From the NCBI RefSeq assembly GCF_024979255.1, contig NZ_JANLCN010000001.1:62001-126000 (forward strand): a stretch of DNA of 64,000 nucleotides, written 5' to 3'. Shown here piece after piece: positions 4,104 to 29,369 of this stretch. Every line of letters begins with the position of its first letter. Positions within the stretch are counted from its first letter, which is position 1. Source of the DNA: Herbiconiux moechotypicola. Its GTDB lineage: Bacteria > Actinomycetota > Actinomycetes > Actinomycetales > Microbacteriaceae. A program made the position numbers and the translations under genes. The notes beneath the pieces were generated by a model. That model saw nothing but the letters and a program-made list of their open reading frames with translations. It did not search any database and was not told the origin of the DNA.

Positions 4104-4496
4104 ATGTCCACAGCCGCACCCGAGCCCGCAGCCGCCGCAGCCGCCGGATCCGCATCCGCATCCGCCGCCGCCCCCGCCCGCCGCCCGAAGCTCGCCGTCG
4201 CGGCGATCGTGCTGGCGGGGATCGTGATCGTCGTGCACGCGGTGTGCCTGCCGATCATCTTCGGTTACTCCGCGGGCGGACTCACGATGATCTGGATGTT
4301 CGGGCTCGCCCCGGTGCTCGGCGTGGTGGGCGTGGTCGCCTTCGTGCTCGGGCTGGTCTCGCTCATCACGGCGATCCGCACCCATGCATCCGTTCTGCTG
4401 CCCGTCATCGCGCTGGTGCTCGCCGTGCTCCCGGGCGTCGTCCTCTCCGTTCTCTGGAACTACCTCACGTCGAGTTCCTTCTCCTTCGGGCCCTGA
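4104..4496 (+). CDS. small membrane protein of unknown function
   Basis: A 130-residue protein with an alanine/proline-rich N-terminal 27 residues, then about three membrane spans (LAVAAIVLAGIVIVVHAV, MFGLAPVLGVVGVVAFVLG and LLPVIALVLAVLPGVVLSV). The layout resembles the DUF4190-like small integral membrane proteins common in Actinobacteria, but the match is not certain. A GAGGGGG Shine-Dalgarno lies just before the ATG. It is divergent from the epoxide hydrolase, and its 3' end is about 55 bases before the repeat array that controls the next operon. Confidence 0.65.
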   Translation: MSTAAPEPAAAAAAGSASASAAAPARRPKLAVAAIVLAGIVIVVHAVCLPIIFGYSAGGLTMIWMFGLAPVLGVVGVVAFVLGLVSLITAIRTHASVLLPVIALVLAVLPGVVLSVLWNYLTSSSFSFGP

Positions 4497-4551
4497 GCGC
4501 CAGACCGGCGGCGACGGCCCGATCTCGGGCGCGCGTGTTACGAGTGTGTGA

Positions 4552-4591
4552 ACGTCTGTGGACGTCTATGTACCTCTATGAACGTCTTGGG
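4552..4591 (+). promoter_or_regulatory. four tandem 10-base repeats, likely GntR operator
   Basis: Four head-to-tail units of exactly ten bases run ACGTCTGTGG, ACGTCTATGT, ACCTCTATGA, ACGTCTTGGG. They end one base before the -10 box (TAGCGT, 4593-4598) of the GntR gene. A ten-base period puts each ACGTCT on the same face of the helix. The position covers the -35 region, as expected for a repressor array, and the first gene of the operon is the natural ligand-responsive regulator. GntR operators are usually inverted repeats, so this direct-repeat layout is unusual. Confidence 0.55.
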
Positions 4592-4592
4592 G

Positions 4593-4598
4593 TAGCGT
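4593..4598 (+). promoter_or_regulatory. -10 box of the GntR operon, leaderless start
   Basis: TAGCGT lies six bases before the ATG at 4605 and directly abuts the 10-base repeat array. It is the only promoter signal I see for the eight overlapping genes that follow. Confidence 0.45.
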
Positions 4599-4604
4599 CG
4601 TGGC

Positions 4605-5336
4605 ATGCTCACCCTCCAGACCGTTCCCGACGGCGACACAGCCCTATGGGAGCGCATCGCCGACGAGATGCGCCGCCGCATCGACTCGGGCTTCTGGGCC
4701 ACCGGCCAGCAGCTGCTCGGTGAAGCCGATCTCGCGGCCGAGCTCGGCGTCGCCCGCGGCACCCTCCGCCGCGCCATCAAGGAGCTCAGCGCCAGCGGCC
4801 ACCTCGTGCAGCGCCACGGCCGCGGCACCTTCGTCGCCAAGCGCGCCGCCGACCAGCCGCTGGCCAACCGGATGGAATCGCTCGGCGAGCGCATGACCCG
4901 CGCCGGCCTCGACTTCACCACCCGAGAGCTCGACCGCCGCGTCGCGGCCGACGGCGCCGAGGCCGGCCTCGACGGCGAACCCGCCCTCGTCGTGCGGCGC
5001 TTGCGCTCGATCGGCGGCAACGCCGTCGCCGTGCTGAGCAACGCCGTGCCCACCGCGCTCTTCCCCGGCATCGACACGAGAGACCTCGAGTCGCGCCCGC
5101 TCTACACCGTGCTCGAAGAGGACTACGGATGCGTGCTCACCCGCGCCGAGCGCACCTTCAGCGCCCTGCCGGCCGACGCCGAACTCGCCACCCTGCTCGA
5201 CGTGGAGCCCGGGCATCCGGTGCTCTCCTTCGTTCAGGTGGCGTGGGACGCCCAGGACCGCGTCGTCGACGTGGCCGAGACCTGGATCCGCTCCGACCGC
5301 CACCAGCCCTCAGTATCCATGTGGAGGACCGTATGA
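4605..5336 (+). CDS. GntR family regulator, HutC/UTRA subfamily
   Basis: A 243-residue regulator. Residues 8-75 form the winged helix typical of GntR proteins (LWERIADEMRRRIDSGFW, then LAAELGVARGTLRRAIKELSASG and the wing RHGRGTFV). Residues of about 95-235 fit a UTRA ligand domain, which in the HutC subfamily binds small sugar or acid effectors. It is the first gene of an eight-gene unit and its TGA overlaps the aldolase ATG by four bases, so it is made together with the enzymes it probably controls. The tandem repeats just upstream are the likely site of autoregulation. The effector is unknown but should be a substrate or intermediate of the pathway. Confidence 0.88.
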   Translation: MLTLQTVPDGDTALWERIADEMRRRIDSGFWATGQQLLGEADLAAELGVARGTLRRAIKELSASGHLVQRHGRGTFVAKRAADQPLANRMESLGERMTRAGLDFTTRELDRRVAADGAEAGLDGEPALVVRRLRSIGGNAVAVLSNAVPTALFPGIDTRDLESRPLYTVLEEDYGCVLTRAERTFSALPADAELATLLDVEPGHPVLSFVQVAWDAQDRVVDVAETWIRSDRHQPSVSMWRTV

Positions 5337-6193
5337 ACGGGTGCGCCATTCGCACTCAGCAGCTGCTCGACCCGGCGACCGGACGGAGCGTGATGCTCGC
5401 GTTCGACCACGGTGGGGGCGGGATGCCCCGGGGCGGCGAAGACCTGCCCGCCGTGCTCGACATCGTCACCGGCAGCGCCGCCCAGGGCGTACTGCTCGGC
5501 CCGGGCGTCTCGCGCCTGGCTGCGGCGCGCTTCGCCCGCGCGGGCGCCCCCGCCATGATCACGGCGCTCGACGCCCCCGTGTTCGACGACATCCCCGGCG
5601 GGCACGGCGCCATCCTCGGCCACCGCCGGGTGCTCTCGGCGAAGGCCGCCCTCGCGAACGGTGCGACGGCCGCGAAGGTCGTGGTGCCGATCGGCCCGGG
5701 CTCGAGGTACGACTTCTCCGACAGCTTCGAGCTCGTCGCCCGCGCGGCGGAGGAGTCGCACGAGGTGGGCCTGCCGCTCATGGTCGAACCAGCCCTGTGG
5801 GGTGAGCGCGTGGTCGGGGCGAACGCCACGGCCGACGACGCCGCCTACGACCGGGTGATCGCCCACTCGGCGCGCCAGGCCTGGGAGCTCGGCGCCGACA
5901 TGGTGAAGATCCACGCACCCCGCGACCCCGAGGTGCTTCGCGAGATCGTGCAGCACAGCGAGGGCCCCGTGTTCGTGCTGGGCGGCGACCCGGCCACCGC
6001 CGAGGAGTTCGTGAGCTCGGTCGACGCGTGGATCGGCGCCGGCGCGCTCGGCGTCGTGGTGGGCCGCAACGTCTGGGCGCGGCCGAACCCCGCCCTCATG
6101 GTGGCGGCGCTCCGGGCGATCGTGCTCGACCGCGATCCGGATGCGGCCCTGGCGCTCCTGGAGGTCGAGCAGCGGGTCGAGGCCGGGGTATGA
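5333..6193 (+). CDS. class I aldolase, DhnA/LsrF (DeoC/LacD) family
   Basis: A 286-residue TIM-barrel enzyme of the DeoC/LacD superfamily, close in pattern to DhnA-type aldolases and LsrF thiolase. These cleave phosphorylated ketoses, usually to dihydroxyacetone phosphate and an aldehyde, through a lysine Schiff base. Visible marks are MLAFDHGG near residue 20, the strand AAKVVVPIG, the likely Schiff-base lysine in GADMVKIHAP, and the phosphate-binding end FVLGGDP plus GVVVGRNVWA. The ATG at 5333 overlaps the regulator stop by four bases. In this operon it should act after the FGGY kinase on a phosphorylated ketose. Substrate is inferred only, and the LsrF-like thiolase reaction is an alternative. 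Confidence 0.8.
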   Translation: MNGCAIRTQQLLDPATGRSVMLAFDHGGGGMPRGGEDLPAVLDIVTGSAAQGVLLGPGVSRLAAARFARAGAPAMITALDAPVFDDIPGGHGAILGHRRVLSAKAALANGATAAKVVVPIGPGSRYDFSDSFELVARAAEESHEVGLPLMVEPALWGERVVGANATADDAAYDRVIAHSARQAWELGADMVKIHAPRDPEVLREIVQHSEGPVFVLGGDPATAEEFVSSVDAWIGAGALGVVVGRNVWARPNPALMVAALRAIVLDRDPDAALALLEVEQRVEAGV

Positions 6194-7323
6194 GCTACCT
6201 CTCGATGGAGCTCGTGGGGCACCGGATGGTCGCACCGGTGCAGCGCGACGACGCCCCGCTCGCGGTGGGCGAGGTGCGCATCCGGGTGGAGGCCGCGAGC
6301 CTGTGCCCCACCGACGTAAAGAAATGGGACGACGCCGCGCTGCCCGCTCGTCTGGCGGCGCTCGCCGAGGCCGAGGCCGAGGCCTCCGTCAAGGCCCGGG
6401 GACTCGTGCTCGGCCACGAGTTCGCCGGCGTCGTGATCGAGACGCACGAGAGCGTGACCGACGTGCTCGTCGGTGATCGCGTGACGGTCGACCCGGTGCT
6501 GCGCTGCGGCGCGTGCCGCTGGTGCGCCGACGGCCATCCGGAGTACTGCGTCGAGCTGCTCGGTATCGGCGCGGCGGCCGGCGACCCCGTCGCCTGCGTC
6601 GTGGCCGGCCTCGGCGGCGGGTTCGCCGAGCACGTGGTCGTGCCCGCCCGCAACGTCATCCCGCTGCCCGACGAGCTCTCCTTCGCCGACGGCGCCCTCG
6701 TCGAGCCGCTCGCCGACGTGGTGCACGCCCTCGAGGCGGCACGGCTCCGCCCGGGCGACGTGACGGCGGTCGTCGGCCTCGGCCCGATGGGCGTGCTGCA
6801 CGTGGAGGCGCTGCTCTTCGCCGGGCACCGGGTGATCGGTGTCGACCCGCGGGAGGACCGCCGCGCCGTCGTGGAGGCGCTCGGCGCCACCGCGGTCGTG
6901 CCCCATGAGCTGCCCGCGGTCGACGCGGTGTTCATCACCGCGGGCGGGGGAGCGCACGTGCCCGCCACGGAGCACGCTCTCGAACGGCTGGCGCCGGGCG
7001 GCCGAGTCGTGCTCTTCTCCTCGGGTGCGAAGGGCGTCGCCCTCACCGTCGACAGCAACCGGATGCACTACCGCCGCCAGACCCTCACCGGTGTCGTCGG
7101 CTTCGACCGCCGTCACGCGGTGGAGGCGATGCGCATCCTCGCCTCCGGGGGCATCAGCGTGGAGCTGGTGCGGCAGCCGTCGCTGCCGCTCGCACGACTG
7201 GGCGAGGCCTTCGCGGGCGTACTCGACCCGGGCGTGCTGAAGACCGCGATCCTCTTCGGCGACTCCGCACTCGAAGAGAGCGCCACCGCCCCCGTCGCCG
7301 CCGAGAAGGCCGAGGCGGCGTGA
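6190..7323 (+). CDS. zinc-dependent alcohol (polyol) dehydrogenase
   Basis: A 377-residue medium-chain dehydrogenase. The catalytic zinc ligands are in ASLCPTDVKKW and GHEFAG, and the structural zinc loop is a four-cysteine lobe (CGACRWC followed by HPEYC). The NAD(P)-binding fold starts at VVGLGPMGVL, followed by an acidic end of the next strand (VIGVDPRED) that favours NAD. Overall it resembles sorbitol, xylitol or threonine dehydrogenases. The ATG overlaps the aldolase stop by four bases. In the pathway it would oxidise a secondary alcohol of a polyol side chain to a ketone before phosphorylation. The loop after the first cysteine carries an unusual alanine/glutamate-rich insert (about residues 50-70). 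Confidence 0.85.
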   Translation: MSYLSMELVGHRMVAPVQRDDAPLAVGEVRIRVEAASLCPTDVKKWDDAALPARLAALAEAEAEASVKARGLVLGHEFAGVVIETHESVTDVLVGDRVTVDPVLRCGACRWCADGHPEYCVELLGIGAAAGDPVACVVAGLGGGFAEHVVVPARNVIPLPDELSFADGALVEPLADVVHALEAARLRPGDVTAVVGLGPMGVLHVEALLFAGHRVIGVDPREDRRAVVEALGATAVVPHELPAVDAVFITAGGGAHVPATEHALERLAPGGRVVLFSSGAKGVALTVDSNRMHYRRQTLTGVVGFDRRHAVEAMRILASGGISVELVRQPSLPLARLGEAFAGVLDPGVLKTAILFGDSALEESATAPVAAEKAEAA

Positions 7324-8690
7324 TGACCGGCGCCGGCGGCGACGCCTCCCCGTTCGCGCACGACGGCTTCGCGCTGGGGCTCGATGTGGGCTCGCACGGC
7401 GTGCGTGCCGTGGTGATCGACGCCGGTGCCCGCACGATCGCGAGTTCGAGCGCCGACTACGCCGGTGCCTTGCCACCGGCCAGGCGACCGCTCGGATCGA
7501 TCGCCGACGCCCTGGAGTCGGCGATGGCTGCTCTGCCCATCGGAGTGCGCACGCGCATCCGCACCATCGGGGTCACCGGCGTGCGCGGCTCGGTCGTCGG
7601 CCTCGAACGCCAGGGCACCGGCCGCTGGCACGCGGTCACCGAGGTGCTGCCCGACTTCGAACCCGCCGTGCAGGCGGAGGCCGAGGCGCTGCGCGACCGA
7701 TACGGCGACGCGCTGGCCGAGCGCACCGGCTGCCCCGCTTTCCCGCTCTCCGGCCTGCCGAAGATCCTGGCCGGCACCGGGTATCTGCCGGGTGCGACCT
7801 GGGTGAGCGTTCAGGATGCGGTGGGCTGGCTGCTGACGGGTGCTCTCGTGTGCTCGACGGGCTCGGCTCTGCGGCTCGGAGTGCTCACCCGCGACGGCGG
7901 CGAGTACGATCGCGCGCTGCTCGCCGAGCTCGGACTGGCCGACCACGTGGTGGCGCCGCTGGTCGCGATCGGCGACCAGGTCGGCACGATCGAGCCGCGC
8001 GTGGCGGCCCGGCACCGGCTGTCTTCCGAGGTGCGGGTCGTCGCCGCTCCGGGCGACGGCCCGGCCGCGCTGCGAGCCCTCGACTCGCTGCCGGATGCGC
8101 GCGCCGGGTCGGCCCTGGTGACCTTGGGTACCTCGACGGTGGTGCTGGCGCCGCGCGCCGACGACGGCACCCAGGCGGTGCCCTACGGCTTCACACTCGA
8201 GGTCCTCGGCGACGGCCGCCGCAGCATCGAGACGGGTGACGGGAGCGGGATGGCCAACGTGGACTGGGCAGCGAACCTTCTGGGCGTGCGTCCGCACGAG
8301 CTCGACGCGCTCGGCCAGGAGGCGGTGCCGGGCGACGGGCTGCGGATGGAGCTGCCGTCGATGGATGTGTGGGGCGTGCGCCGCGAGGGATCGATCGTGG
8401 GCTTCGGCCGCGACTTCGGCCGCGCAGAACTGGCGCGCTCGGTGCTCGACTTCGTCGCCGACGGTGCGGTCGGGGCCATCGAACGGGTCGGCGCGATCGC
8501 CCCGTTCGAGGCGGTCGCGCTCACCGGAGGCGGAGCGAGGTCGACCACGATCGTGGAGCGCATCCGCCGCCGCATCGATGTGCCGGTCACTCTGGTCGCC
8601 GAGCCCGAGCTCGCGGCGCGCGGGGCGGCGCTCGTCGCCCTGCCCGGCCGGTCGTCCGCACCCGCTCGCCGGATGGAGGTGCCCGCGTGA
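7323..8690 (+). CDS. FGGY family carbohydrate kinase
   Basis: A 455-residue kinase with the two actin-like domains of the FGGY family (xylulokinase, glycerol kinase, LsrK). The N-terminal phosphate loop is LGLDVGSHGVRAVV. The catalytic aspartate is expected in AAPGDGPAALRAL. The second domain begins near VTLGTSTVV and the adenosine loop is LTGGGARSTTI. The sequence is rather divergent, so the sugar cannot be named. The ATG at 7323 shares one base with the upstream TGA (TGATG); a GTG at 7320 is a weak alternative. It would phosphorylate the keto product of the dehydrogenase, giving the aldolase its phosphate handle. Confidence 0.8.
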   Translation: MTGAGGDASPFAHDGFALGLDVGSHGVRAVVIDAGARTIASSSADYAGALPPARRPLGSIADALESAMAALPIGVRTRIRTIGVTGVRGSVVGLERQGTGRWHAVTEVLPDFEPAVQAEAEALRDRYGDALAERTGCPAFPLSGLPKILAGTGYLPGATWVSVQDAVGWLLTGALVCSTGSALRLGVLTRDGGEYDRALLAELGLADHVVAPLVAIGDQVGTIEPRVAARHRLSSEVRVVAAPGDGPAALRALDSLPDARAGSALVTLGTSTVVLAPRADDGTQAVPYGFTLEVLGDGRRSIETGDGSGMANVDWAANLLGVRPHELDALGQEAVPGDGLRMELPSMDVWGVRREGSIVGFGRDFGRAELARSVLDFVADGAVGAIERVGAIAPFEAVALTGGGARSTTIVERIRRRIDVPVTLVAEPELAARGAALVALPGRSSAPARRMEVPA

Positions 8691-10183
8691 GCAACCGCAC
8701 CCGGGCCCTGGAGCTGGCCCGCAGCACCGTCGCCCCCTTGTTCATCGACGGCGAGTGGCGGCAGCCCTCCCACGACGCCCTCGGCGGAGCCGACGAGATC
8801 GAGACGATCGATCCGGCCACGGGAGCCGTCATCACCACCCTGGCGGCCGGCTCGGCCACCGACGTGCACGACGCCGTCGCGGCCGCACGGCGCGCGGCGA
8901 CGAGTTGGTCGCGCGCCACCCCGGCCGCCCGCGCGCGCCTGCTTCGTGCCCTGGCCGCGCTCGTGGAGGCCGACGCCGCAGAGCTCGCGGCCGTGGACAC
9001 GCTCGACAACGGCAAGCCACTGGCGCTCACCACCGCCGTCGACCTGCCGCAGGCGGTGGCGCACCTGCGCCACCAGGCCACGGTGGCCGAGACGCGCACC
9101 GCCGAACGCATCGTCGACGCCGGGGGAGCCGCCGCGGCGGAGGTGTACCGGGAGCCCGTCGGCGTGGTGGGGCTCATCACGCCCTGGAACTACCCGTTGC
9201 TCATGGTGGTGCGGGCGCTCGCCCCCGCCCTGGCCGCGGGCAACACCGTCGTGGTGAAGCCCTCCGAGCTCACGCCGATCAGTGCGCTTCTGCTCGCCGG
9301 CCTGGCTGCCCGCGCGGGGTTCCCGCCCGGCGTGGTCAACGTCGTCACCGGCACGGGGGAGCAGGCGGGTCAGGCGCTCGCCTCCGATCCCCGGGTCGAC
9401 CTGATCACCTTCACCGGCGGTCGCGCGACCGCACGCCGCATCGCCGCGGTCACCGAGGCGCGCACCCTGTTCGAGCTCGGAGGGAAGGCTCCGTTCGTCG
9501 TGTTCGACGACGCCGACCTCGACGCCGCGGCGCTAGCGGCCACCGCCGGCGCCTTCGGCAACCAGGGCCAGAACTGCATGGCCGCCACGCGCATCCTCGT
9601 GCACGACGCCGTCGCCGACGAGTTCGCCAAGCGTTTCGCCGAGGCCACGGCCGCGTTCACCGTGGGCGACGGCTTCGACCGGGGCACGCGCTGCGGCCCG
9701 CTCGTGTCGGAGGCGCACCGCAGCACGGTCGCCGGCTACGTCGACCGTGCCGTGGCGGCCGGTGCCTCGGTGCTCACCGGTGGTGAGTCGACGGGATACT
9801 CGCGCTTCAGCCCCACCGTGCTGGCGGGTGTCGACCGCGGTGCGGAGGCCTGGAACGAGGAGATCTTCGGCCCGGTGGCGGTTCTCGACCGCTTCGTCAC
9901 CGACGCCGAGGGACTCGCGCTGGCCAACAGCACCCGTTACGGTCTGGCGGCCTCGGTGTGGACGGCCGACGCCGACCGCGGGCGCGAGGCGGCGGCTGCG
10001 CTGCAGGCGGGAGTGGTGTGGGTGAACTGCTACTCGAAGTTCGACGCGGCCATCCCGTTCTCGCCGCGCGGCGCGAGCGGATCGGGCACCGTGGGCGGCC
10101 ACTGGGGCTACGAGGGCTACACGGCGCTGAAGAGCGTGTGGACGCCCCGCCCCGCCGACGGACTCCGGGCAGGTGCCGCGTGA
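8687..10183 (+). CDS. NAD(P)-dependent aldehyde dehydrogenase
   Basis: A 498-residue member of the ALDH superfamily, which oxidises aldehydes to acids. The fold marks are present in order: TPWNYPLLM with the catalytic asparagine, the cofactor lysine in VVKPSE, FTGG, the general base in FELGGK near residue 263, the nucleophile in GNQGQNC near 296, and EEIFGPV. Length is normal. The GTG at 8687 overlaps the kinase stop by four bases; longer in-frame extensions upstream lie inside the kinase gene. In the operon it is the obvious link between the aldehyde released by the aldolase and the carboxylate that UbiD would need. Confidence 0.9.
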   Translation: MSNRTRALELARSTVAPLFIDGEWRQPSHDALGGADEIETIDPATGAVITTLAAGSATDVHDAVAAARRAATSWSRATPAARARLLRALAALVEADAAELAAVDTLDNGKPLALTTAVDLPQAVAHLRHQATVAETRTAERIVDAGGAAAAEVYREPVGVVGLITPWNYPLLMVVRALAPALAAGNTVVVKPSELTPISALLLAGLAARAGFPPGVVNVVTGTGEQAGQALASDPRVDLITFTGGRATARRIAAVTEARTLFELGGKAPFVVFDDADLDAAALAATAGAFGNQGQNCMAATRILVHDAVADEFAKRFAEATAAFTVGDGFDRGTRCGPLVSEAHRSTVAGYVDRAVAAGASVLTGGESTGYSRFSPTVLAGVDRGAEAWNEEIFGPVAVLDRFVTDAEGLALANSTRYGLAASVWTADADRGREAAAALQAGVVWVNCYSKFDAAIPFSPRGASGSGTVGGHWGYEGYTALKSVWTPRPADGLRAGAA

Positions 10184-10749
10184 CCGGCCGCCTGGTGATC
10201 GGCGTCACCGGTGCCAGTGCACCGCACTACGCCCACCGCCTGCTCGAGGTGCTTGCCGAGCGGCCCGAGGTCGAGACTCATCTCGTGGTCTCGCGCGGGG
10301 CCCGGCGCACGCTCACCGAGGAGATCGGCCTGTCGATCGCCGAGTTCGGCCGCGCCGCCGACGTGGTGCACAACCCCGACGACCTCGGCGCCTCCATCGC
10401 CTCCGGCTCGTTCGCCACCCTCGGCATGGCCGTGGTGCCCTGCTCGGTGAAGAGCCTCGGCCAGATAGCGGCCGGCATCGGCAGCGACCTGCTCTCACGG
10501 GCGGCCGACGTCACGCTCAAGGAGCGCAGGAGGCTCGTGCTCGCGGTGCGCGAGACCCCGCTGTCGCTCATCCACCTCCGCAACATGACCACGGTCACCG
10601 AGGCCGGCGCGATCGTCATGCCGCCGGTGCCGGCCTTCTACCACCACCCCCGTTCGCTGCAGGACGTGATCGACCACACAGTGGGCCGCATCCTGGAGCA
10701 GTTCGGGATCGACCACGACCTGTACACCCGCTGGGGGGAGACCACGTGA
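10180..10749 (+). CDS. ubiX: UbiX-type flavin prenyltransferase
   Basis: A 189-residue UbiX homologue. UbiX joins dimethylallyl phosphate to reduced FMN, making the prenyl-FMN cofactor that UbiD decarboxylases require. The N-terminal FMN loop reads VIGVTGASAPHYAHRLLEVL. The conserved VPCSVKSLGQIAAGIGSDLL and ADVTLKERRRLVLAVRETP follow, and the C-terminal end has AGAIVMPPVPAFYHHP. Length is normal and all blocks are intact. It overlaps the genes on both sides by four bases and sits directly before ubiD, the usual arrangement for dedicated UbiX/UbiD pairs. Confidence 0.9.
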   Translation: MTGRLVIGVTGASAPHYAHRLLEVLAERPEVETHLVVSRGARRTLTEEIGLSIAEFGRAADVVHNPDDLGASIASGSFATLGMAVVPCSVKSLGQIAAGIGSDLLSRAADVTLKERRRLVLAVRETPLSLIHLRNMTTVTEAGAIVMPPVPAFYHHPRSLQDVIDHTVGRILEQFGIDHDLYTRWGETT

Positions 10750-12173
10750 CCGAGCAGCAACCGCTCTCGCAAGACCTGCGCGTGTGGCTCGACGAGTACC
10801 GCCGCGCGCATCCCGACGACGTGCTCGAGCTGCCCGCGCCGATCGACGCGCGCGAAGACCTCACCGCGGTGGTCGACGCCCTCAGCACCGAGGACCGGTA
10901 CCCGCTCGTGGTCGCTCCCGGCGTCACCGGCACGGGCGCCGACGTGCCCGTGCTCGCCAACCTGTTCGCCTCGCGCGAGCGACTGGCGAGGATGCTCGGG
11001 GTGCCGCTCGAGTCGCTGCACCGCGAGTACGCGGCCCGCAGCGCGAGGCCGCGGCCGATGCATGCGGTCGCGTCGAGCGACCACATGATCGTGCGGGGCG
11101 ACGACGTCGACCTCGGGGCGCTCCCGATCCTCACCCACTTCGCCTCCGACAAGGGGCCCTACATCACGAGCGGGGTGGTTGTGGCCGTCGACCCCGACAC
11201 GGGGGTGGGCAACCTCAGCTACCACCGCGCCACGCCCGCGTCGCGCACCGGCCTGGCGCTCAGCCTGCACTCGCGGGGCGATCTGTGGCGCCTGCTCGCG
11301 AAGTACGCCGAGCGGGGCGAACGGATGCCCGTGGCGATGGTCATCGGCGCGCATCCTCTCTTTCTGCTCGCGGCCTCGGCGCGCGTGCCGCAGTCGGTCG
11401 ACGAGCGCGAGATCGCGGGCGGCCTCTTCGGCGCAGGCCTCGACGTGGTGCGCACGCCGGTGCACGGCATCGAGGTGCCGGCCACGGCCGAGTACGTGCT
11501 CGAGGGCTACATCGACCCCGCCGAGCACGAGGCGGAGGGGCCGTTCGGCGAGTTCTCGGGCTACAGCTCGAACCGCTCCACGAACAACCTCATGACGGTC
11601 GAGGCCGTCATGACCCGGCCCGACCCGGTGCTGCTCAGCGTGACGGGCGGCCGATCGGCCGAGCACCTCACCCTGGCGCGGCTGCCGCGGGAGGCCGAGA
11701 TGGTCGACAAGCTCATGGCGCGCTTTCCCCAGGTGGTGCGGGTGCACTACCCGAACTCGGGCACGCACTTCCACGCCTATCTCGCCGTCGACCAGAAGCG
11801 GCCGGGGGAGGCGCGGCAGATCATGCTGGGCCTGCTCGGCTGGGATCCCTACCTCAAGACGGTGATCGCGGTCGATCCGGATGTGGACATCACCGACGAC
11901 TCCGCGGTGCTCTGGGCCGCCGCCGTGCACGTGCAGCCCGCCGCCGACGTGTTCGTGGTGGACGGACTGCCGGGCAGCCCGCTCGACCCGTCGTCATCCG
12001 CCGACGGCACCACCTCGCGCATGGGCATCGACGCCACGCGGCGGCAGCCCTTCGAGGGCATCCCGATCGTCACCTCCGACGCGGCGCGCGAGCGAGCGGC
12101 AGCGCTGCTGGACTCGGCCGCCGCGGCCCCCGCATCCTCTTCACCCCACGACCCCAGGAGCAGCCCCCGATGA
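10746..12173 (+). CDS. ubiD: UbiD family prenyl-FMN-dependent decarboxylase
   Basis: A 475-residue UbiD-family enzyme. The family reversibly decarboxylates aromatic, heteroaromatic or alpha,beta-unsaturated acids with prenyl-FMN. The active-site pair of glutamates appears in EGPFGEFSGY at about residues 263-268, with the five-residue spacing seen in Fdc1, and an arginine of the expected block is in SYHRATPASR. The conserved metal and cofactor region DHMIVRGDDVDLGALPIL is also intact. Its GTG overlaps ubiX by four bases and its TGA overlaps the monooxygenase ATG by four. No separate UbiD-type partner subunit is present. The acid it acts on should come from the aldehyde dehydrogenase two genes upstream; this is inference. 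Confidence 0.9.
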   Translation: MTEQQPLSQDLRVWLDEYRRAHPDDVLELPAPIDAREDLTAVVDALSTEDRYPLVVAPGVTGTGADVPVLANLFASRERLARMLGVPLESLHREYAARSARPRPMHAVASSDHMIVRGDDVDLGALPILTHFASDKGPYITSGVVVAVDPDTGVGNLSYHRATPASRTGLALSLHSRGDLWRLLAKYAERGERMPVAMVIGAHPLFLLAASARVPQSVDEREIAGGLFGAGLDVVRTPVHGIEVPATAEYVLEGYIDPAEHEAEGPFGEFSGYSSNRSTNNLMTVEAVMTRPDPVLLSVTGGRSAEHLTLARLPREAEMVDKLMARFPQVVRVHYPNSGTHFHAYLAVDQKRPGEARQIMLGLLGWDPYLKTVIAVDPDVDITDDSAVLWAAAVHVQPAADVFVVDGLPGSPLDPSSSADGTTSRMGIDATRRQPFEGIPIVTSDAARERAAALLDSAAAAPASSSPHDPRSSPR

Positions 12174-13564
12174 AACCGTACGTGCTCGCCGGCTTCCAGA
12201 TGATCGGCCTCAACGGCATGATCGGCGCCTCGTGGCTCGACCCCGACGACACCTCGGTGGCCTTCACCGACCTCGACTACTGGATCGGCATCGCGCGACA
12301 GCTCGACGACGCGGGCTTCGACTTCCTCTTCTTCGCCGACAGCTACGGCTTCCCGGGCCTCGACGGAGAGCCTCTCGCGGCCACCGTGCGCGAGGGCCGC
12401 TCCATTCCGCAGGCCGACCCCGTGACCGTGGTGTCGGCGCTCGCCGCCGCCACGCGCGACCTCGGCTACGTGGTCACCGCCTCCACGACCGTGGAGAAGC
12501 CGGCCGCGCTCGCCCGGCGCTTCGCCACCCTCGATCACTTCACCAAGGGCCGCATCGGCTGGAACATCGTCACCGGCTCGCAGGGGGCCACGGCCGCCTC
12601 GCTCATGGGCGAGGAGGTCACCCCGCACGACCTGCGCTACGACAAGGCCGACGACTACCTCGAGCTGTGCCTGAAGCTCTGGGAGTCGAGCTGGCGAACG
12701 GATGCGGTGGTCGCCGACCGTGCATCCGGCGTGTGGGCAGACCCCGAGGGCGTGCGGTCGATCAGCCACGACGGGCCGTTCCACCAGGCCAAGGGCATCC
12801 TCAACGTGCCGCCGTCGCCGCAGCGCACACCGCTGCTCGTGCAGGCGGGCACGTCGGGGCGAGGGTGCGAGTACGCAGGGCGCAACGCCGAGGTGGTGTT
12901 CGTGGCGGGCGGCCCGCACGAGGTGGTGGCGCGGCGGGTGCAGAACATCCGCGACGCGGCGGTGGCCGCCGGGCGGCCCGCCGACAGCATCACGATCGTG
13001 GCGGGCGTGATGTTCCTCGTGGCGCCGACCGAGGAGGAGGCCATCGCCAAGCACGAGCGCATGCTCTCGCTCTCGTCGTACGACGGCGCAGCGGCCATCT
13101 TCGCCGGCAACACCGGTGTCGACCTGCTGCAGTTCGACCAGGACGCACCGCTGCCGCACGACCTCTCCACCGAGCTCGGACTCAGCAACCTGCAGCGCTA
13201 CCTCGGCACCGCCGAGCAGCCCGGGCCGCTGGTGCGCGAGATCGTCGACGACTTCCGCCGCACGGGCCTGAACGGCAGCGTGTTCGTGGGCACGCCCGAG
13301 CAGGTGGCCGACGAGACCGAGGCGTTCGTGGCGGCCACCGGGGTCGACGGGTTCCTCGTGCAGCCCAACGTGGTGCCCGCCACCTACGACGACTTCATCG
13401 GGCTGCTGCTGCCCGAGCTCCGCGCCCGCGGGCTTGTGCGCGAGTCGCGCGCGGACTCAGCCGACCCCGGCGCGCCGGCGACCACCCTGCGGGAGCGGCT
13501 CTTCCCGGGTGCGGGTGCCCACCTCCCCGACACCCACTACGGCGCGGCGCTGCGCTGGTCGTGA
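12170..13564 (+). CDS. FMNH2-dependent monooxygenase, NtaA/SnaA/DszA family
   Basis: A 464-residue bacterial luciferase-like monooxygenase of the NtaA/SnaA/DszA group, whose members oxidise small amines, sulfones and heterocycles with FMNH2 and oxygen. The N-terminus is typical (AGFQMIGLNGMIGASWLDP), followed by DAGFDFLFFADSY, the block RFATLDHFTKGRIGWNIVTG, and LLVQAGTSGRGCEYAGRNAEVVF. AGGAG lies nine bases before the ATG, which overlaps the ubiD stop by four bases. Enzymes of this group need a separate flavin reductase, and none is in the operon. As last gene it would hydroxylate the decarboxylated product. Confidence 0.87.
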   Translation: MKPYVLAGFQMIGLNGMIGASWLDPDDTSVAFTDLDYWIGIARQLDDAGFDFLFFADSYGFPGLDGEPLAATVREGRSIPQADPVTVVSALAAATRDLGYVVTASTTVEKPAALARRFATLDHFTKGRIGWNIVTGSQGATAASLMGEEVTPHDLRYDKADDYLELCLKLWESSWRTDAVVADRASGVWADPEGVRSISHDGPFHQAKGILNVPPSPQRTPLLVQAGTSGRGCEYAGRNAEVVFVAGGPHEVVARRVQNIRDAAVAAGRPADSITIVAGVMFLVAPTEEEAIAKHERMLSLSSYDGAAAIFAGNTGVDLLQFDQDAPLPHDLSTELGLSNLQRYLGTAEQPGPLVREIVDDFRRTGLNGSVFVGTPEQVADETEAFVAATGVDGFLVQPNVVPATYDDFIGLLLPELRARGLVRESRADSADPGAPATTLRERLFPGAGAHLPDTHYGAALRWS

Positions 13565-13587
13565 CCCCGCGCATCCCACCACCCCCT

Positions 13588-13644
13588 CGAGTGGACCGAA
13601 TCGGTCGCTTCACCCACGGCGAAGCGACCGATCGCGCCCACTCG
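13588..13644. repeat. 23-9-23 palindrome, copy 1
   Basis: Two 23-base arms (13589-13611 and 13621-13643) pair at 19 of 23 positions around a 9-base loop. The inner part TCGGTCGCTTC / GAAGCGACCGA is perfect. A second copy with the same arm and loop lengths lies at 14719-14773. It sits 24 bases after the last gene of the UbiD operon and before the LacI gene, so it can act as a terminator for the operon. The shared sequence in two places argues for a dispersed REP-like element rather than a plain terminator. Confidence 0.7.
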
Positions 13645-13651
13645 GTGGCTC

Positions 13652-13657
13652 TAAGCT
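13652..13657 (+). promoter_or_regulatory. -10 box of a leaderless start
   Basis: TAAGCT lies six bases before the GTG at 13664 of the LacI gene, immediately after the first palindrome copy. Confidence 0.4.
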
Positions 13658-13663
13658 GAGCGG

Positions 13664-14677
13664 GTGATGGATGCTGCGCCCAAGCGGCCGACGATCCGCG
13701 ACGTGGCGACCGCCGCGAACGTGTCGAGCGGCACGGTGTCGCGGGTGCTCAACGGTCGCAACTGGGTGAGCCCCGAGGCGCGCACCGCCGTCGAGGCCGC
13801 CATCAAGAAGACCGGCTACCGGGTGAACCCGCACGCCAGGAACCTCGCGATGAGCCGCTCGAACACGATCGCCTTCCTGCTCGTCGAGAGCCAGCAGGTG
13901 CTCTTCGAAGACCCCAACTTCGCGCGCCTCGTTCGGGGCACCAGCGAAGCGCTCGCCGCTCGGGACATGTACTCGGTGCTCATCATGGCCGGCGACCAGG
14001 CCGAGCGGGAGCGCGCGCTGTCGTACATCACCGCCGGTCACGTCGACGGCGTGCTGCTCGGCTTCTCGACCTCGGGCGGCGAAGACCTCATCGAGGCGCT
14101 GCTTGCGGCTCACGTGCCGATCGTCGCGTGCGGCCAGCCCGCCGGCTTCGAGGGCCGGCTCGGCAGCGTCTCGGCCGACGACCGCATCGGGGCCGTCGCG
14201 ATGGTGCGGCACCTCGTCGACTCGGGCCGCACCCGCATCGCCACCGTCACGGGTCCGCTCGACATGAACGGCGGTATCAGCCGGCTCGACGGCTACCGCA
14301 GGGTGCTCGGCGACGCGGTCGACGAGCGGCTCGTGGTGAACGGCGACTACACGCGGGCGGGTGGCGCGGCCGGCGCGCGCGAGCTTCTCGCGCGAGGAGT
14401 GCCGTTCGACGCCGTGTTCGCGGCGAACGACGCGATGGCCGCCGGTGTGATCGACGTGCTCACGGAGGCCGGGATGCGCGTACCCGACGACGTGGCGGTC
14501 GCCGGATTCGACGACAACGTCATCGCCCAGTCCACCACGCCGCCGCTCAGCACCGTGCACCAGCCGTTCGAGCGCATCAGCGCGGAGATGGTGCGTCTGC
14601 TCACCGAGATCATCGCGGGGGAGTCGCCCGCGAGCATCACGCTGCCCACCACGATCGTGCTCCGCGAGAGCGCCTGA
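13664..14677 (+). CDS. LacI family regulator (paralogue 1)
   Basis: A 337-residue LacI-type repressor. The DNA-binding head is PTIRDVATAANVSSGTVSRVLNG, interrupted here only for reading as PTIRDVATAAN + VSSGTVSRVLNG, followed by the hinge SPEARTAVEAAI. The sugar-binding domain covers the rest and ends in the usual SITLPTTIVLRES. It is strikingly similar to the LacI protein at 21172-22221, sharing long identical blocks such as QQVLFEDPNFARLVRGT and HVDGVLL, and the recognition helix SSGTVSR is identical. GTG 13664 is taken as start because a TAAGCT box lies six bases ahead; ATG 13667 is equally possible. It probably acts on the nearby galactoside cluster, alone or with its paralogue. Confidence 0.87.
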   Translation: MMDAAPKRPTIRDVATAANVSSGTVSRVLNGRNWVSPEARTAVEAAIKKTGYRVNPHARNLAMSRSNTIAFLLVESQQVLFEDPNFARLVRGTSEALAARDMYSVLIMAGDQAERERALSYITAGHVDGVLLGFSTSGGEDLIEALLAAHVPIVACGQPAGFEGRLGSVSADDRIGAVAMVRHLVDSGRTRIATVTGPLDMNGGISRLDGYRRVLGDAVDERLVVNGDYTRAGGAAGARELLARGVPFDAVFAANDAMAAGVIDVLTEAGMRVPDDVAVAGFDDNVIAQSTTPPLSTVHQPFERISAEMVRLLTEIIAGESPASITLPTTIVLRESA

Positions 14678-23952: not shown

Positions 23953-24765
23953 TCAGCCCGCCGCGCGATCCTCCGCGGGCTCGGCGAGCACCACCGAGGT
24001 GCCGAGATCACGGATGCTCGCCGCGGCGGCCTCGCCGAGTCCGGCATCCGAGATGACCAGGTCGACCTCGTCGATGCCGAAGATGCGGTAGCGGCCGAAG
24101 CTGCCGTACTTCGACGAACCGGCCACCAGCACCGCCTCCGACGACATGGCCAGCGCCGCCTTCTTGAGGTCGACCTTCGACTCGGCGGGAGTGGTCACCC
24201 CGCGCTGCAGGTCCCACGAGCTCGACGAGAGGAACGCCACGTCGACGGAGAGCTCCCGCAGGGTCATCGCGGCCAGCCGGCCGACCGTGGACTGGTTGCC
24301 CTTCTCGACCCGGCCGCCCAGGGCGATGAGGTCGACCGTGGGGTGGTCGAGGAAGGACCCGATGACGGCGAGGTCGTTGGACACCACCGTGAGATCGGCG
24401 ATCGAGTCGAGGTAGGGGCGCATGGCCTGGATGGTGGTGCCGGCGTCGAGGAAGACCGTCATCCCGTCTCGCACCAGGCGCGAGGCCTCGCGGGCCATGG
24501 CGTCCTTCTCGATCAGGTCGAGGGTGGCCTTCTCCAGCCGGCTGGGCTCCACCGACAGGCGCGAGGAGATCTTCGCGCCCCCCGGTGTGGCGAGCACCCG
24601 GCCCGCCGCCTCGAGCGCGGCGATGTCGCGCCGGATGGTCATCTGACTGACCCCCAGCAGGGCGGTGAGCTGGTGGTAGCTCATCACCGATTCACGCCGC
24701 AGGTGCTTCACGATGAGCTCGCGGCGCTGCTCGGGGATCAGCGGCGTCTCGTCTGCGTCGGACAC
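23953..24765 (-). CDS. DeoR family regulator
   Basis: A 270-residue DeoR-type repressor. The N-terminal helix-turn-helix is QRRELIVKHLRRESVMSYHQ then LTALLGVSQMTIRRDIAALE. The C-terminal DeoR sensor domain, related to phosphosugar isomerases, has FLDAGTTIQAM, VVSNDLAV and LGGRVEKGNQSTVG. Such regulators usually respond to a phosphorylated sugar intermediate. The GTG at 24765 has an AGGAGGAG Shine-Dalgarno five bases upstream, and longer upstream extensions run into the aldolase gene. It lies 25 bases after the class II aldolase gene and ends the otnK-like operon, which it probably controls together with the divergent genes. Confidence 0.9.
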   Translation of the reverse strand: MSDADETPLIPEQRRELIVKHLRRESVMSYHQLTALLGVSQMTIRRDIAALEAAGRVLATPGGAKISSRLSVEPSRLEKATLDLIEKDAMAREASRLVRDGMTVFLDAGTTIQAMRPYLDSIADLTVVSNDLAVIGSFLDHPTVDLIALGGRVEKGNQSTVGRLAAMTLRELSVDVAFLSSSSWDLQRGVTTPAESKVDLKKAALAMSSEAVLVAGSSKYGSFGRYRIFGIDEVDLVISDAGLGEAAAASIRDLGTSVVLAEPAEDRAAG

Positions 24766-24790
24766 GGCACTCCTCCTCGATCCATCCAGC

Positions 24791-25534
24791 CTAGGGGGTG
24801 GTGAGGGCGTCCTCGGCGGAGCCGGCGGTCCACGGCGTGCCCCATTTCTCGCTGAGCGCGGCGATCTCGGCGTGGGGGAGCGTGCGCCGGGCGCGGCCGT
24901 CGGTGAGCAGCGCGATCCGGCACGCCTCCTCGAGCTCGATCGCCGCCTCGACGGCGCGATCGGCGTCGACGGCGCTCGCGATCTGGCCGTGATTGGCCAG
25001 CAGGGCGGCGTGGAACGGCTCGTCGAGTTCGAGCACGAGCTCACCGAGCTCGGGGCTGCCCGGCACCCGGAACGGGATGAGCGGGGTCTGGCCCACGCGC
25101 ATGACGAAGTAGGGCGTGAGCGGCGGCACCGCGCTCAGCGCGCTCCAGGGCTCGAGGCACGACAGGGCGACCGCGTGCGGCGAGTGCACGTGCACGACGG
25201 CCGTGTGCCCGGGGTTCTTGCGGTAGAACGCGAGGTGGAGCGAGGTCTCCTTCGAGGCGCGCGGCCCGTCGAGGTGCGTGCCGTCGGCGCTGAGCACCGC
25301 GATGTCGGCACGCGTGAGCCGGCCCAGATCGGTGCCGGTGCCGGTGGCGTAGACGTGCCCGCCCTGGAGAAGGCTCACGTTGCCGCTCGAGCCCGGGCTG
25401 ATGCCGGCGGCGGCCACGCGCGCGCCCATGCCGATCACCACGTCGACCGGGTCGGCGAAGCCGGGGGCGGGAGGCGCGGATGCGGCGCCGGCGGTCGCGG
25501 TGCTGACGGATGCGGTGACGTCGACGTCGGTCAC
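24791..25534 (-). CDS. class II aldolase/adducin family, OtnC-like decarboxylase
   Basis: A 247-residue zinc enzyme of the class II aldolase/adducin fold. Zinc ligands are expected in VVHVHSPHA and LANHGQIAS, and the phosphate loop in SPGSSGNVSLL with GPRASKETSLHL. Next to a DUF1537 kinase, members of this family (OtnC) decarboxylate 3-oxo-tetronate 4-phosphate to dihydroxyacetone phosphate. The GTG at 25534 overlaps the kinase stop by four bases, so the pair is translationally coupled. A fuculose-phosphate-type aldolase is an alternative, but the kinase neighbour favours the decarboxylase. Confidence 0.8.
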   Translation of the reverse strand: MTDVDVTASVSTATAGAASAPPAPGFADPVDVVIGMGARVAAAGISPGSSGNVSLLQGGHVYATGTGTDLGRLTRADIAVLSADGTHLDGPRASKETSLHLAFYRKNPGHTAVVHVHSPHAVALSCLEPWSALSAVPPLTPYFVMRVGQTPLIPFRVPGSPELGELVLELDEPFHAALLANHGQIASAVDADRAVEAAIELEEACRIALLTDGRARRTLPHAEIAALSEKWGTPWTAGSAEDALTTP

Positions 25535-26784
25535 GAGAGGGCCTCCCAGGCGGTGCTGAACATGTCGGTGGAGCCGAAGTTGCCCGACTTCAACGCGAGC
25601 GCGACCGGCGTGCCCGGCGATCCGGACGCGGCGCCGGTCGTGGAGAGCGACCAGCACACCCCGGGTGCGATCTGCGGCCCGATGAGGAGGCGCGTGCAGC
25701 CGAGCGCGGTCGTGACGGCCCCCGAGGTCTCGCCCCCGGCGACGATGACGCGGCGCACGCCGAGCCGGGCGACGGCGTCGACGACGACACGCGAGAGCAC
25801 CCCCTCCACCGCGGGGGCGGCGTCATGCGAGGCGTCGCGGATGTCGTCGAGCGTGGCGACCGAGTACACCACGGGCACGACCTCGGGATCGAGGCCGGCG
25901 AGCCAGGCCGAGACCTCGGCGACGACCGCGCCGGGATCGGCGAGCAGGCGTTGGACGTCGAGCTTGAACCCCGCCGCGCCCGCCGCGAGCGCAGCGGCGA
26001 TCTGCTCGCGGGTCTTCGCAGAGGCGCTGCCGCACACCACCAGCCGGCGACCCTCAGGGGCGTCGAAGCGCTGGTTCGCCGGGTCGTGGTCTCCGCGCAT
26101 CCCGAACGCCAGCCCCGCACTGCCCGAGAGCACGCGCCAGCTCGTGGTGGCGGCCTGGATGGTCTCGAGGTCGGCGTTCGTGGTGGCGTCGACCACCACG
26201 TAAGAGTCGGGCAGCGCGTCGAGGGTGTCGCGGAGCGCGTCGGCGCCCGCCCAGACCGAGTCGACCGAGACCTCGGTGACGGGGTGCGAGGTCTGGGGCG
26301 TGAGCAGCGCGGAGACCCGCGACTCGGTCATCGGCGTGAGCGGGTGGTGGCGCATGGGGGAGTCGCTCAGCAGTTCACCACCCACGAAGAGGTGGCCCTG
26401 GAAGACGGTGCGCGCGTTGTCGGGGAAGGCGGGCACGACGACGGTGCGGCGCTCGCCCAGCTCGCCGAGCACGGCGTCGAGCACAGGACCGATGTTGCCG
26501 GCCGAGGTGGAGTCGAAGGTCGAGCAGTACTTGACGAAGTACTGCCCGGGCTCGAGCTCCCGCAGGGCGCGCACCGAGTCGAGGGAGACCGACACGGCCT
26601 CGGCCACGGGTGCGGTGCGCGACTTGAGCGCCACGATCACCGCGTCGAGCCCCTTGGCCTCTGCGGAGGAGGGCACGGCCTCGGCGCCCAGCACCACGGC
26701 CACCCGCAGCCCGCGTTCACGGAGCGAGGTCGCGAGGTCGGTGGCGCCGGTGAAGTCGTCGGCGATCGCAGCGAGACGGATCAC
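25531..26784 (-). CDS. four-carbon acid sugar kinase, DUF1537/OtnK family
   Basis: A 417-residue kinase of the DUF1537 family. The N-terminal substrate domain starts AAIADDFTGATDLATSL with the family aspartate pair, and has YCSTFDST and TVVVPAFPDNARTVFQGHLF. The C-terminal nucleotide domain ends in VIVAGGETSGAVTTALG. Known members phosphorylate 3-oxo-tetronates, threonates or related acids (OtnK, DtnK, LtnK). The GTG at 26784 has AAGGGGAG upstream. It heads the minus-strand operon with the OtnC-like and DeoR genes. Together they fit conversion of a 3-oxo acid sugar to dihydroxyacetone phosphate. Confidence 0.88.
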   Translation of the reverse strand: MIRLAAIADDFTGATDLATSLRERGLRVAVVLGAEAVPSSAEAKGLDAVIVALKSRTAPVAEAVSVSLDSVRALRELEPGQYFVKYCSTFDSTSAGNIGPVLDAVLGELGERRTVVVPAFPDNARTVFQGHLFVGGELLSDSPMRHHPLTPMTESRVSALLTPQTSHPVTEVSVDSVWAGADALRDTLDALPDSYVVVDATTNADLETIQAATTSWRVLSGSAGLAFGMRGDHDPANQRFDAPEGRRLVVCGSASAKTREQIAAALAAGAAGFKLDVQRLLADPGAVVAEVSAWLAGLDPEVVPVVYSVATLDDIRDASHDAAPAVEGVLSRVVVDAVARLGVRRVIVAGGETSGAVTTALGCTRLLIGPQIAPGVCWSLSTTGAASGSPGTPVALALKSGNFGSTDMFSTAWEALS

Positions 26785-26822
26785 GAGGACTCCCCTTCGA
26801 GGTGACGGAACAAGACCTCGAC

Positions 26823-26851
26823 ATTCCACCACATGTGAATCCGTGTTGCAA
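26823..26851 (-). promoter_or_regulatory. promoter candidate for the otnK-like operon
   Basis: On the minus strand TTGCAA (26851-26846), a 17-base spacer and TGGAAT (26828-26823) form a plausible promoter. It shares an AT-rich patch with the divergent promoter, where CAAAGTTTG (26849-26857) is an inverted repeat that could be a DeoR site. Confidence 0.35.
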
Positions 26852-26854
26852 AGT

Positions 26855-26884
26855 TTGAAAATTTGATTCGATCGTGTGTATGGT
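26855..26884 (+). promoter_or_regulatory. promoter candidate for the SAF-dehydrogenase operon
   Basis: TTGAAA (26855-26860), an 18-base spacer and TATGGT (26879-26884) make a good -35/-10 pair. It places transcription start near 26891 and therefore rules against translation from the in-frame GTG at 26876. Confidence 0.45.
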
Positions 26885-26968
26885 GGCCCAATCGTCGCCA
26901 GCACCTCGCTGCCGACCGACGCCCTGCACATCGACCGCGCGGAACGAGCCGCGCAGACGGGACCAACG

Positions 26969-28327: not shown

Positions 28328-29313
28328 CCGGCGACACCTCCTCGACCGCCGCCGAGCGCATCCGCGCGGCGCGCCTCCCTGAGGGCTACGACCTGCGCAT
28401 CCTCGACGCCCACCACCACTTCTGGGATCTCGAGGGCGAGGGTCACTGGCCCTGGATCCAAGACGAGTACAACCCCGACTTCTTCCTCGGCGACTACAAC
28501 GCCATGCGGCGCACCTTCCTCGCGGAGCAGTACCTCGCGGCCACCGCCGGCTGGACCGTGCTGGGCACGGTGCACTGCGAGGCCGAGCGCAGCCGCTCCG
28601 AGGAGGTGGCCGAAGACGAGTTCCTCGACGGACTGCACGCCCTCGACCCCCGGTTCCCCGCCGCGGTGGTGGCGCACGCCACCTTCCTTCGCGACGACCT
28701 CGCCCAGGTGCTCGCGGGCCACGCCGCGCATCCGCTGGTCAAGGGCATCCGTTCGAAGCCCGTCATCGCGACAGATGCCGCGGGTGCCGCCGCCGGCGCG
28801 GTGGCGGGGGCCCCGGGCTCGCTGCAGGACGAGCGCTGGCTGGCCGGCCTCCGAACCCTCGCCGACCACGGATTCTCGTGGGACCTCCGGGTGCCCTACT
28901 ACCACCTGGCCGAGGCGGCCGAGGTGGTCGCCACGATCCCCGGCACGAGCGTCGTCGTGAACCACTGCGGCCTGCCGCTGGATCGCAGCGCCGACGGGCT
29001 CGCGATCTGGCGCGACGGGATGCACCGGCTGGCCGCGCTGCCGAACACGGCGGTCAAGGTGTCGGAGCTCGGCCTCTACCGCAATGTGTGGAACCGCGAC
29101 TCCAACATCGAGATCGTGCGCGAGACCCTCGAGATCTTCGGGCACTCCCGGGCGATGTTCGCCTCGAACCTCCCGGTGGCCACCCTCACCGCCCCGAGCT
29201 TCGACGAGGTCATGGACGTGATCCTCGCCGGAGCCCAGGGCGCCACCCCCGACCAGCTCGACGACCTGTTCCACGGCACCGCGTCACGCGTGTACCGGGT
29301 CGAGCTCCCGTAA
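28324..29313 (+). CDS. amidohydrolase family 2 protein, probable sugar lactonase
   Basis: A 329-residue TIM-barrel hydrolase of the amidohydrolase-2 family, close in pattern to L-fucono- and L-rhamnono-lactonases. The metal-binding strand-1 motif is DAHHHFW at residues 28-34. Further blocks are VKGIRSKPV, VVNHCGLPLDRS and VKVSELGLY. At the strand-8 position where an aspartate is common, this protein has MFASNLPV; an asparagine here is frequent in lactonase-like members. GTG 28324 overlaps the upstream TGA by four bases. It would open a sugar lactone to the acid used by the dehydrogenase and kinase. Confidence 0.82.
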   Translation: MTGDTSSTAAERIRAARLPEGYDLRILDAHHHFWDLEGEGHWPWIQDEYNPDFFLGDYNAMRRTFLAEQYLAATAGWTVLGTVHCEAERSRSEEVAEDEFLDGLHALDPRFPAAVVAHATFLRDDLAQVLAGHAAHPLVKGIRSKPVIATDAAGAAAGAVAGAPGSLQDERWLAGLRTLADHGFSWDLRVPYYHLAEAAEVVATIPGTSVVVNHCGLPLDRSADGLAIWRDGMHRLAALPNTAVKVSELGLYRNVWNRDSNIEIVRETLEIFGHSRAMFASNLPVATLTAPSFDEVMDVILAGAQGATPDQLDDLFHGTASRVYRVELP

Positions 29314-29369
29314 CTCCCCGCATCACTCCCTCCTCCCGAAACCCCTCCCCGACACAGAAAGCTGACCCC

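Follow-up and report, generated by a model that had tools for sequence, protein, structure and literature searches.

An overlapping eight-gene operon of Herbiconiux moechotypicola joining a carbohydrate-type module to UbiX/UbiD and a luciferase-like monooxygenase: possible catabolism of a polyhydroxyalkyl N-heterocycle

Why would a carbohydrate kinase and an aldolase be encoded in one unit with a prenyl-FMN decarboxylase and a monooxygenase? The question is raised by an operon of Herbiconiux moechotypicola (genome of 4.28 Mb, 51 contigs), found in the 64,000 nucleotides of contig NZ_JANLCN010000001.1 analysed here as a whole—the window, whose coordinates are used throughout. Eight genes of the + strand extend from 4605 to 13564, and the start of each overlaps the preceding stop; the region delimited by the initial annotation opened at 4552, and the first start codon is at 4605. 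The genes are:

4605..5336, + strand, GntR-family regulator with a UTRA ligand domain (PF00392, PF07702)
5333..6193, + strand, class I (DeoC/LacD, FbaB/LsrF-like) aldolase (PF01791)
6190..7323, + strand, zinc-dependent medium-chain alcohol dehydrogenase (PF08240, PF00107)
7320..8690 (GTG start; or ATG 7323), + strand, divergent FGGY carbohydrate kinase (PF00370, PF02782)
8687..10183, + strand, aldehyde dehydrogenase, ALDH (PF00171, 2.9e-151)
10180..10749, + strand, UbiX flavin prenyltransferase (NF004685 and TIGR00421, both above cut-off)
10746..12173, + strand, UbiD prenyl-FMN decarboxylase (PF20695, PF01977, PF20696; TIGR00148 above cut-off)
12170..13564, + strand, NtaA/DmoA-family FMN-dependent luciferase-like monooxygenase, LLM (TIGR03860, 429.9 bits for a cut-off of 279.7)

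These eight family labels, already given by the initial annotation, are confirmed by Pfam and NCBIfam, and the expected motifs are present. Its eight genes joined by seven overlaps were found again: six junctions overlap by 4 bases, and that of the kinase by 4 or 1 according to the start chosen (GTG 7320 or ATG 7323). For the aldolase we retained ATG 5333, which gives the 4-base overlap, the gene caller's alternative start being 5321. The overlap density of the operon exceeds the local habit: with ATG 5333, 4-base overlaps account for 7 of its 7 junctions versus 8 of the 36 other co-directional neighbour pairs in the called gene list, among which a 1-base overlap occurs once. We infer that the eight genes are co-transcribed, and the overlap of all of them argues for a single pathway. 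The single promoter that had been announced did not come out, since a scan for sigma-70-type promoters from 4400 to 13800 was empty on both strands, though such scans may miss GC-rich actinobacterial promoters. The GC content at third codon positions stays inside the range of the neighbours, and the total GC of four of the eight genes is slightly higher (0.743-0.747 versus at most 0.739).

Our preferred reading, which is tentative and made from sequence, is that the operon serves the catabolism of an N-heteroaromatic compound bearing a polyhydroxyalkyl side chain, of the sugar-alcohol type. The zinc dehydrogenase would oxidise the penultimate hydroxyl of the chain to a ketone and the FGGY kinase would place a phosphate on the terminal carbon. 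From the resulting ketose-1-phosphate-like chain the class I aldolase would release dihydroxyacetone phosphate (DHAP), leaving a heteroaryl (or heteroarylmethyl) aldehyde, which ALDH would convert to the acid. UbiD, with the prenyl-FMN produced by UbiX, would take CO2 off the ring carboxylate, and LLM would come last, for the oxidation of the ring or the removal of an N-linked remnant. As UbiD requires an aromatic or unsaturated acid, what remains after cleavage of the chain is suggested to be heteroaromatic. The whole would be controlled by the GntR regulator, which is HutC/PhnF-like and stays below the NCBIfam equivalog cut-offs (102.9 bits for HutC, cut-off 220).

The carbohydrate half is the more familiar one. 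The closest solved structures to the aldolase are the archaeal fructose-bisphosphate aldolase 1w8s (6.6e-19) and LsrF (1.1e-9), and its KIH at 192-194 and GRNV at 244 stand where we would expect the Schiff-base lysine and the phosphate-binding motif. The zinc dehydrogenase, like the threonine, inosose and idonate dehydrogenases but below every NCBIfam equivalog cut-off, carries a cysteine motif at 106, and ALDH carries ELGGK at 263 and GQNC at 294; we assume for these motifs their usual roles. The kinase is divergent, with 75.5 bits against XylB for an NCBIfam cut-off of 380 and a nearest solved relative in the PDB at 2.1e-10; it shows, as does the aldolase, the motifs expected for a sugar pathway of the FGGY-kinase/DHAP-aldolase type. 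Together, dehydrogenase, kinase, aldolase and ALDH would form a coherent chain-shortening module that fits a known kind. In the ketose-1-phosphate pathways of rhamnulose and fuculose, and in LsrK/LsrF, the same logic associates an FGGY kinase, a DHAP-forming or LsrF-like aldolase and an aldehyde dehydrogenase. The operon differs from them by a dehydrogenase in place of the isomerase, no isomerase being found among its genes, and by the addition of UbiX, UbiD and LLM. The full operon is a plausible variant of known catabolic logic.

The oxidation, phosphorylation and cleavage of a side chain, as put forward by the initial annotation, are supported in part, as a coherent module, the same four classes occurring together elsewhere. 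A search of 15 congeners with the aldolase gave a single match (36%), which belongs to a sugar-type operon (L019) where a solute-binding protein, a permease, a DeoR regulator, a 2-hydroxyacid dehydrogenase, an FGGY kinase, a zinc dehydrogenase, an ALDH and the aldolase are together; the kinase of this operon has no recognisable likeness to that of the window. In Clostridium scindens, according to PMC12934955, the fin neighbourhood is induced by riboflavin and comprises a kinase, a class I aldolase, and alcohol and aldehyde dehydrogenases. The likeness to our operon is at the class level only: fin belongs to an anaerobe and has a RibF-type kinase and glycine-reductase homologues, whereas the operon kinase is FGGY, and "UbiD" has no occurrence in the main text of that paper. 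The fin neighbourhood and the C2-C3 riboflavin route are parallels in kind. Carbohydrate classes are also found in operons that lack UbiD (L019 and L008), the matches on Rubrobacter plasmids lie in looser sugar clusters, and one further locus (L020, genome G786) has UbiX and a 36% identical UbiD, from another UbiD group, next to a 38% identical ALDH.

The nature of the ring is best approached through UbiD, the only one found in this genome. It has three domains, a UbiX partner, and R161 (in NLSYHR), E264 and E269 (in EGPFGE) at the places which we take to be those of the R-E-E triad. Its PDB matches are 6h6v (1.4e-64), presumably the furan decarboxylase HmfF, then UbiD of Escherichia coli (1.3e-49) and AnInD (1.6e-43), presumably an indole decarboxylase. 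Two of the closest solved UbiDs would thus be heteroaromatic decarboxylases, and we counted this in favour of a heteroaromatic substrate.

The relatives of UbiD are more telling. At least 593 stretches matched and at least 555 were confirmed, of which the best 80 were kept (56-62% identity); the neighbour counts rest on few reference proteins, the loci vary in length and several end at contig ends. UbiX accompanies UbiD in 71 of these 80 loci, an Amidohydro_2 protein in 76, CobW in 74 and an NCS2 nucleobase permease in 67; subunits of the xanthine dehydrogenase (XDH) type are found in 63 (2Fe-2S), 42 (molybdenum cofactor) and 19 (FAD). In 53 of the 80, moreover, there is a deaminase at least 45% identical to one of Caballeronia; the latter, the only one of the 53 compared to the PDB, is nearest to 2PAJ (5.4e-136). 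The PDB list names this entry only as a "putative cytosine/guanine deaminase", and we take it to be the isoxanthopterin and pterin-6-carboxylate deaminase reportedly characterised by Hall et al. The closest relatives on plasmids share the same uniform setting as those on genome contigs. In our reading, the subfamily would decarboxylate nucleobase- or pteridine-like carboxylates, and the association with nucleobase permease, XDH-type and deaminase genes indicates an N-heteroaromatic acid; from there we infer that the operon's substrate is a polyhydroxyalkyl N-heterocycle. The initial annotation had left the choice between an aromatic and a heteroaromatic acid; these clusters support, independently, the heteroaromatic side.

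The cluster itself, with UbiD/UbiX, Amidohydro_2, CobW, the nucleobase permease, the XDH-type hydroxylase and the deaminase, is conserved and widespread in Proteobacteria and Actinobacteria (L021-L100; for example L018:1999-20000 and L013:10056-18604). It looks like a pathway for pteridine or purine carboxylates. No description of such a pathway was found among the open-licence PMC papers searched; PMC4016543 concerns a different purine route.

Does UbiD of the window really belong to this subfamily? It keeps 127 of the 129 columns invariant in the 80 relatives, when the outgroup keeps 71 and the leave-one-out controls keep 129/129 to 133. Of the 146 columns that do not vary across the non-actinobacterial loci, it keeps 140, to be compared with 143 for Georgenia, 143 for Nocardia acidivorans and 139 for Actinomadura. 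In a tree built from 33 of the 80 relatives together with the window UbiD and a single, very distant outgroup, it groups with the 11 actinobacterial members (12 rows, 99/99). The order UbiX-UbiD is also that of Actinobacteria (10 of 11 loci, one being cut off); the other 69 loci differ, with D and X adjacent in this order in 56. The operon and the nucleobase/pteridine-type clusters therefore have in common the UbiD subfamily, the UbiX partner and the actinobacterial order, and differ by what surrounds them: permease, XDH-type hydroxylase, amidohydrolases and CobW in the clusters, polyol module and LLM in the operon. The UbiX-UbiD pair would have been recruited into a new operon, possibly with a shift of specificity.

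The full assembly is rare in the genomes sampled. We searched samples of 299 genomes of the family, 396 of the phylum and 347 of the order, which are overlapping draws from larger groups and each include the genome under study. Beyond this genome the kinase is matched in 1 of 298 family genomes (E 1e-40), 0 of 395 in the phylum (E 1e-40) and 0 of 346 in the order (E 1e-30); the lone match (G068) is partial, 41% identical and in an unrelated setting, and a kinase search of genome contigs gave no match. Across the three samples the complete operon is seen in one genome only. The co-occurrence of the eight families in other Actinobacteria, a check proposed with the initial annotation, is thus negative in the genomes sampled, where the kinase counts and the single 36% aldolase match among congeners speak against a conserved actinobacterial operon. 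That no described pathway has this enzyme set, as also proposed, holds in so far as none was found among the open-licence PMC papers searched, with one search aimed at the set itself.

Several observations weigh against a polyhydroxyalkyl N-heterocycle as substrate. Since the operon is seen in one genome only, co-occurrence lends it no independent support. UbiD of E. coli, which acts on a benzenoid acid, is the second-best solved relative, and in the Georgenia cluster the deaminase is not specifically 2PAJ-like but more general, 2PAJ ranking only ninth among its matches (3.9e-35). The branch of the window UbiD is long (0.92) and its placement is flagged as unsure by the tree; the stretch following R161 is altered (H165A, ATPASRT for AMIHSRN), and M207L is a further change. 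These two features, the long branch and the altered stretch, suggest that its substrate may differ from that of the subfamily. None of the permease, XDH-type hydroxylase, Amidohydro_2, CobW and deaminase partners is among the operon genes, which include no transporter at all; no NCS2 permease was found in the host genome, and its one XDH-type large subunit is on a different contig. Conversely, a search of the 80 UbiD loci (E 1e-10) gave relatives of the GntR regulator, aldolase, zinc dehydrogenase, kinase, ALDH and LLM in none of them.

LLM brings little to the question. The initial annotation used its NtaA-type label as a clue to the substrate, and the label proves of little use in this respect: LLM belongs to a paralogue group that spans several genera of the same bacterial family. 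Its best PDB matches are the riboflavin lyase 5w48 (1.6e-98) and the dimethyl-sulfide monooxygenase 6ak1 (2.9e-88). RcaE, the riboflavin lyase of Microbacterium, is of the same NtaA/DmoA family and 42% identical to LLM, no nearer to it than to the other paralogues tested (38-47%), in a quick tree of 41 rows where the RcaE branch is long and 434 of its 461 residues were used. A riboflavin lyase function, considered for this best match, was set aside on the ground of this equidistance, and the tree does not support orthology of LLM to RcaE. Relatives at E 1e-100 or better exist in 28 of 249 family genomes, and at six places of the genome under study, LLM included. It groups, on a longer branch (0.55), with proteins 61-67% identical, one of them from the same genome. 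Ten places hold relatives of 61-66%, and eight were fetched (L131-L138, identities of 60-67%): a common divergent small gene neighbours the relative in each of the eight; four of these small genes were scanned, giving three HTH-cupin proteins and one cupin part only, and four of the eight loci also share a gene that in the one scanned encodes a DyP peroxidase. These eight neighbourhoods disclose no informative pathway, and no flavin reductase is among the operon genes. In this genome NtaA/DmoA-type monooxygenases are expanded. On contig 7, four such genes lie with an NMT1/THI5-like binding protein and an HTH-cupin regulator (L141:2745-13250).

Could the substrate be an N-ribityl heterocycle—riboflavin, ribityl-lumazine or similar—degraded by a C2'-C3' route adapted to aerobic conditions? 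The dehydrogenase would act at 4', the kinase at 5' and the aldolase at C2'-C3', leaving DHAP and an N-formylmethyl heterocycle that ALDH would turn into the N-carboxymethyl derivative; LLM would then release glyoxylate oxidatively, and UbiD would act on a ring carboxylate. N-dealkylation by NtaA-type enzymes is known chemistry, and among solved structures LLM matches riboflavin lyase best, though unspecifically as seen above. From its known chemistry UbiD would not be expected to act on an N-CH2-COOH group, so that the scheme requires a second acid on the ring, and the kinase is FGGY, not RibF-like. We hold this scheme as distinctly unlikely, despite the induction by riboflavin of the fin enzyme classes, glycine-reductase homologues included (PMC12934955), and the listing of a C2-C3 fragmentation of riboflavin in PMC12746152, as a route reported earlier and absent from its own screen. 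More doubtful still is a polyhydroxyalkyl furan or benzenoid (a sugar condensation product or C-glycoside remnant), whose chain would be cleaved before decarboxylation of a furoic or hydroxybenzoic acid as in HmfFG. The two nearest solved UbiDs would fit, and the furan-dicarboxylate route of HmfFG in 5-hydroxymethylfurfural degradation likewise couples the oxidation of an aldehyde to the action of UbiD/UbiX on a heteroaromatic acid. However, the window UbiD is distant from 6h6v and its subfamily sits in nucleobase-type clusters; no furan-specific, furoate or aromatic ring-cleavage family is among the 30 of the 58 window genes that were scanned, the rest of the genome not being searched.

The operon might also hold two jobs on one transcript: a polyol or deoxysugar operon, and a recruited UbiX-UbiD-LLM set with an unrelated substrate; or else UbiD might act on an unsaturated acid derived from the sugar. 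In this direction go the carbohydrate classes found without UbiD in L019 and L008, the relatives of UbiD and of LLM each lying in other settings, and the richness of the window in carbohydrate genes, among those scanned. Against it, the overlap of all eight genes favours one pathway, and we consider this explanation as somewhat unlikely. The polyhydroxyalkyl N-heterocycle remains the substrate we prefer, and the interpretation of the initial annotation is partly supported, shifted towards N-heterocycles; its narrower candidates (furans, pyrazines, C-glycoside remnants) found no support here.

Two elements flank the operon:

4549..4587, + strand, a 10-bp unit (consensus TGAACGTCTA) directly repeated four times, shortly 5' of the first gene
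13588..13644, + strand, long inverted repeat whose 27-nt arms are 81% complementary, separating the last operon gene from a LacI gene

The direct repeats (3.9 copies, score 50 in TRF) are a candidate operator for the GntR regulator. Their pattern, which was defined post hoc, has three overlapping matches in the window, all at 4549-4587, for an expected mean of 0.33 and three or more in 1 of 100 shuffles. The inverted repeat precedes the LacI gene, which starts at 13664; the fold of 13580-13655 reaches -42.1 kcal/mol (z -7.0), equalled by 0 of 200 shuffles. The terminator scan reported no terminator with a T run after this hairpin, which is a candidate for the end of the operon or for a LacI operator.

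Two gene clusters lie further away. At 23953-30701 of the window, a DeoR regulator, a class II aldolase, a sugar-acid-kinase-type protein (SBD_N/NBD_C), a DRL-type oxidoreductase, an Amidohydro_2 protein and an MFS transporter probably form an acid-sugar catabolic cluster. Upstream, about 1.8-17 kb before window position 1 and with other genes intervening before the operon, another cluster (L005:3205-18227) comprises a nucleoside hydrolase, an adenosine-deaminase family protein, four luciferase-like monooxygenases, an amidohydrolase and parts of ABC transporters (a sugar-type solute-binding protein and an NlpA-type lipoprotein). Its N-heterocycle-like content may lend weak support to our reading of the operon.

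If this reading is true, sugar-catabolic enzymes and a prenyl-FMN decarboxylase would have been joined against cofactor-like or Maillard-type heterocycles. A narrower version, rather unlikely, would have the operon degrade, aerobically, pteridine-like cofactors that carry a polyol (ribityl- or polyhydroxyalkyl-pteridines, lumazines, flavins), the chain yielding DHAP and a carboxylated heterocycle from which the recruited pteridine/purine-type UbiD would then remove the ring carboxylate. Were it correct, the C2'-C3' cleavage of the chain in riboflavin-type compounds would gain its genes, and pteridine acids a prenyl-FMN decarboxylase. Beyond Herbiconiux, N-heteroaromatic carboxylates would be a testable substrate prediction for a UbiD subfamily present across many Proteobacteria and Actinobacteria.

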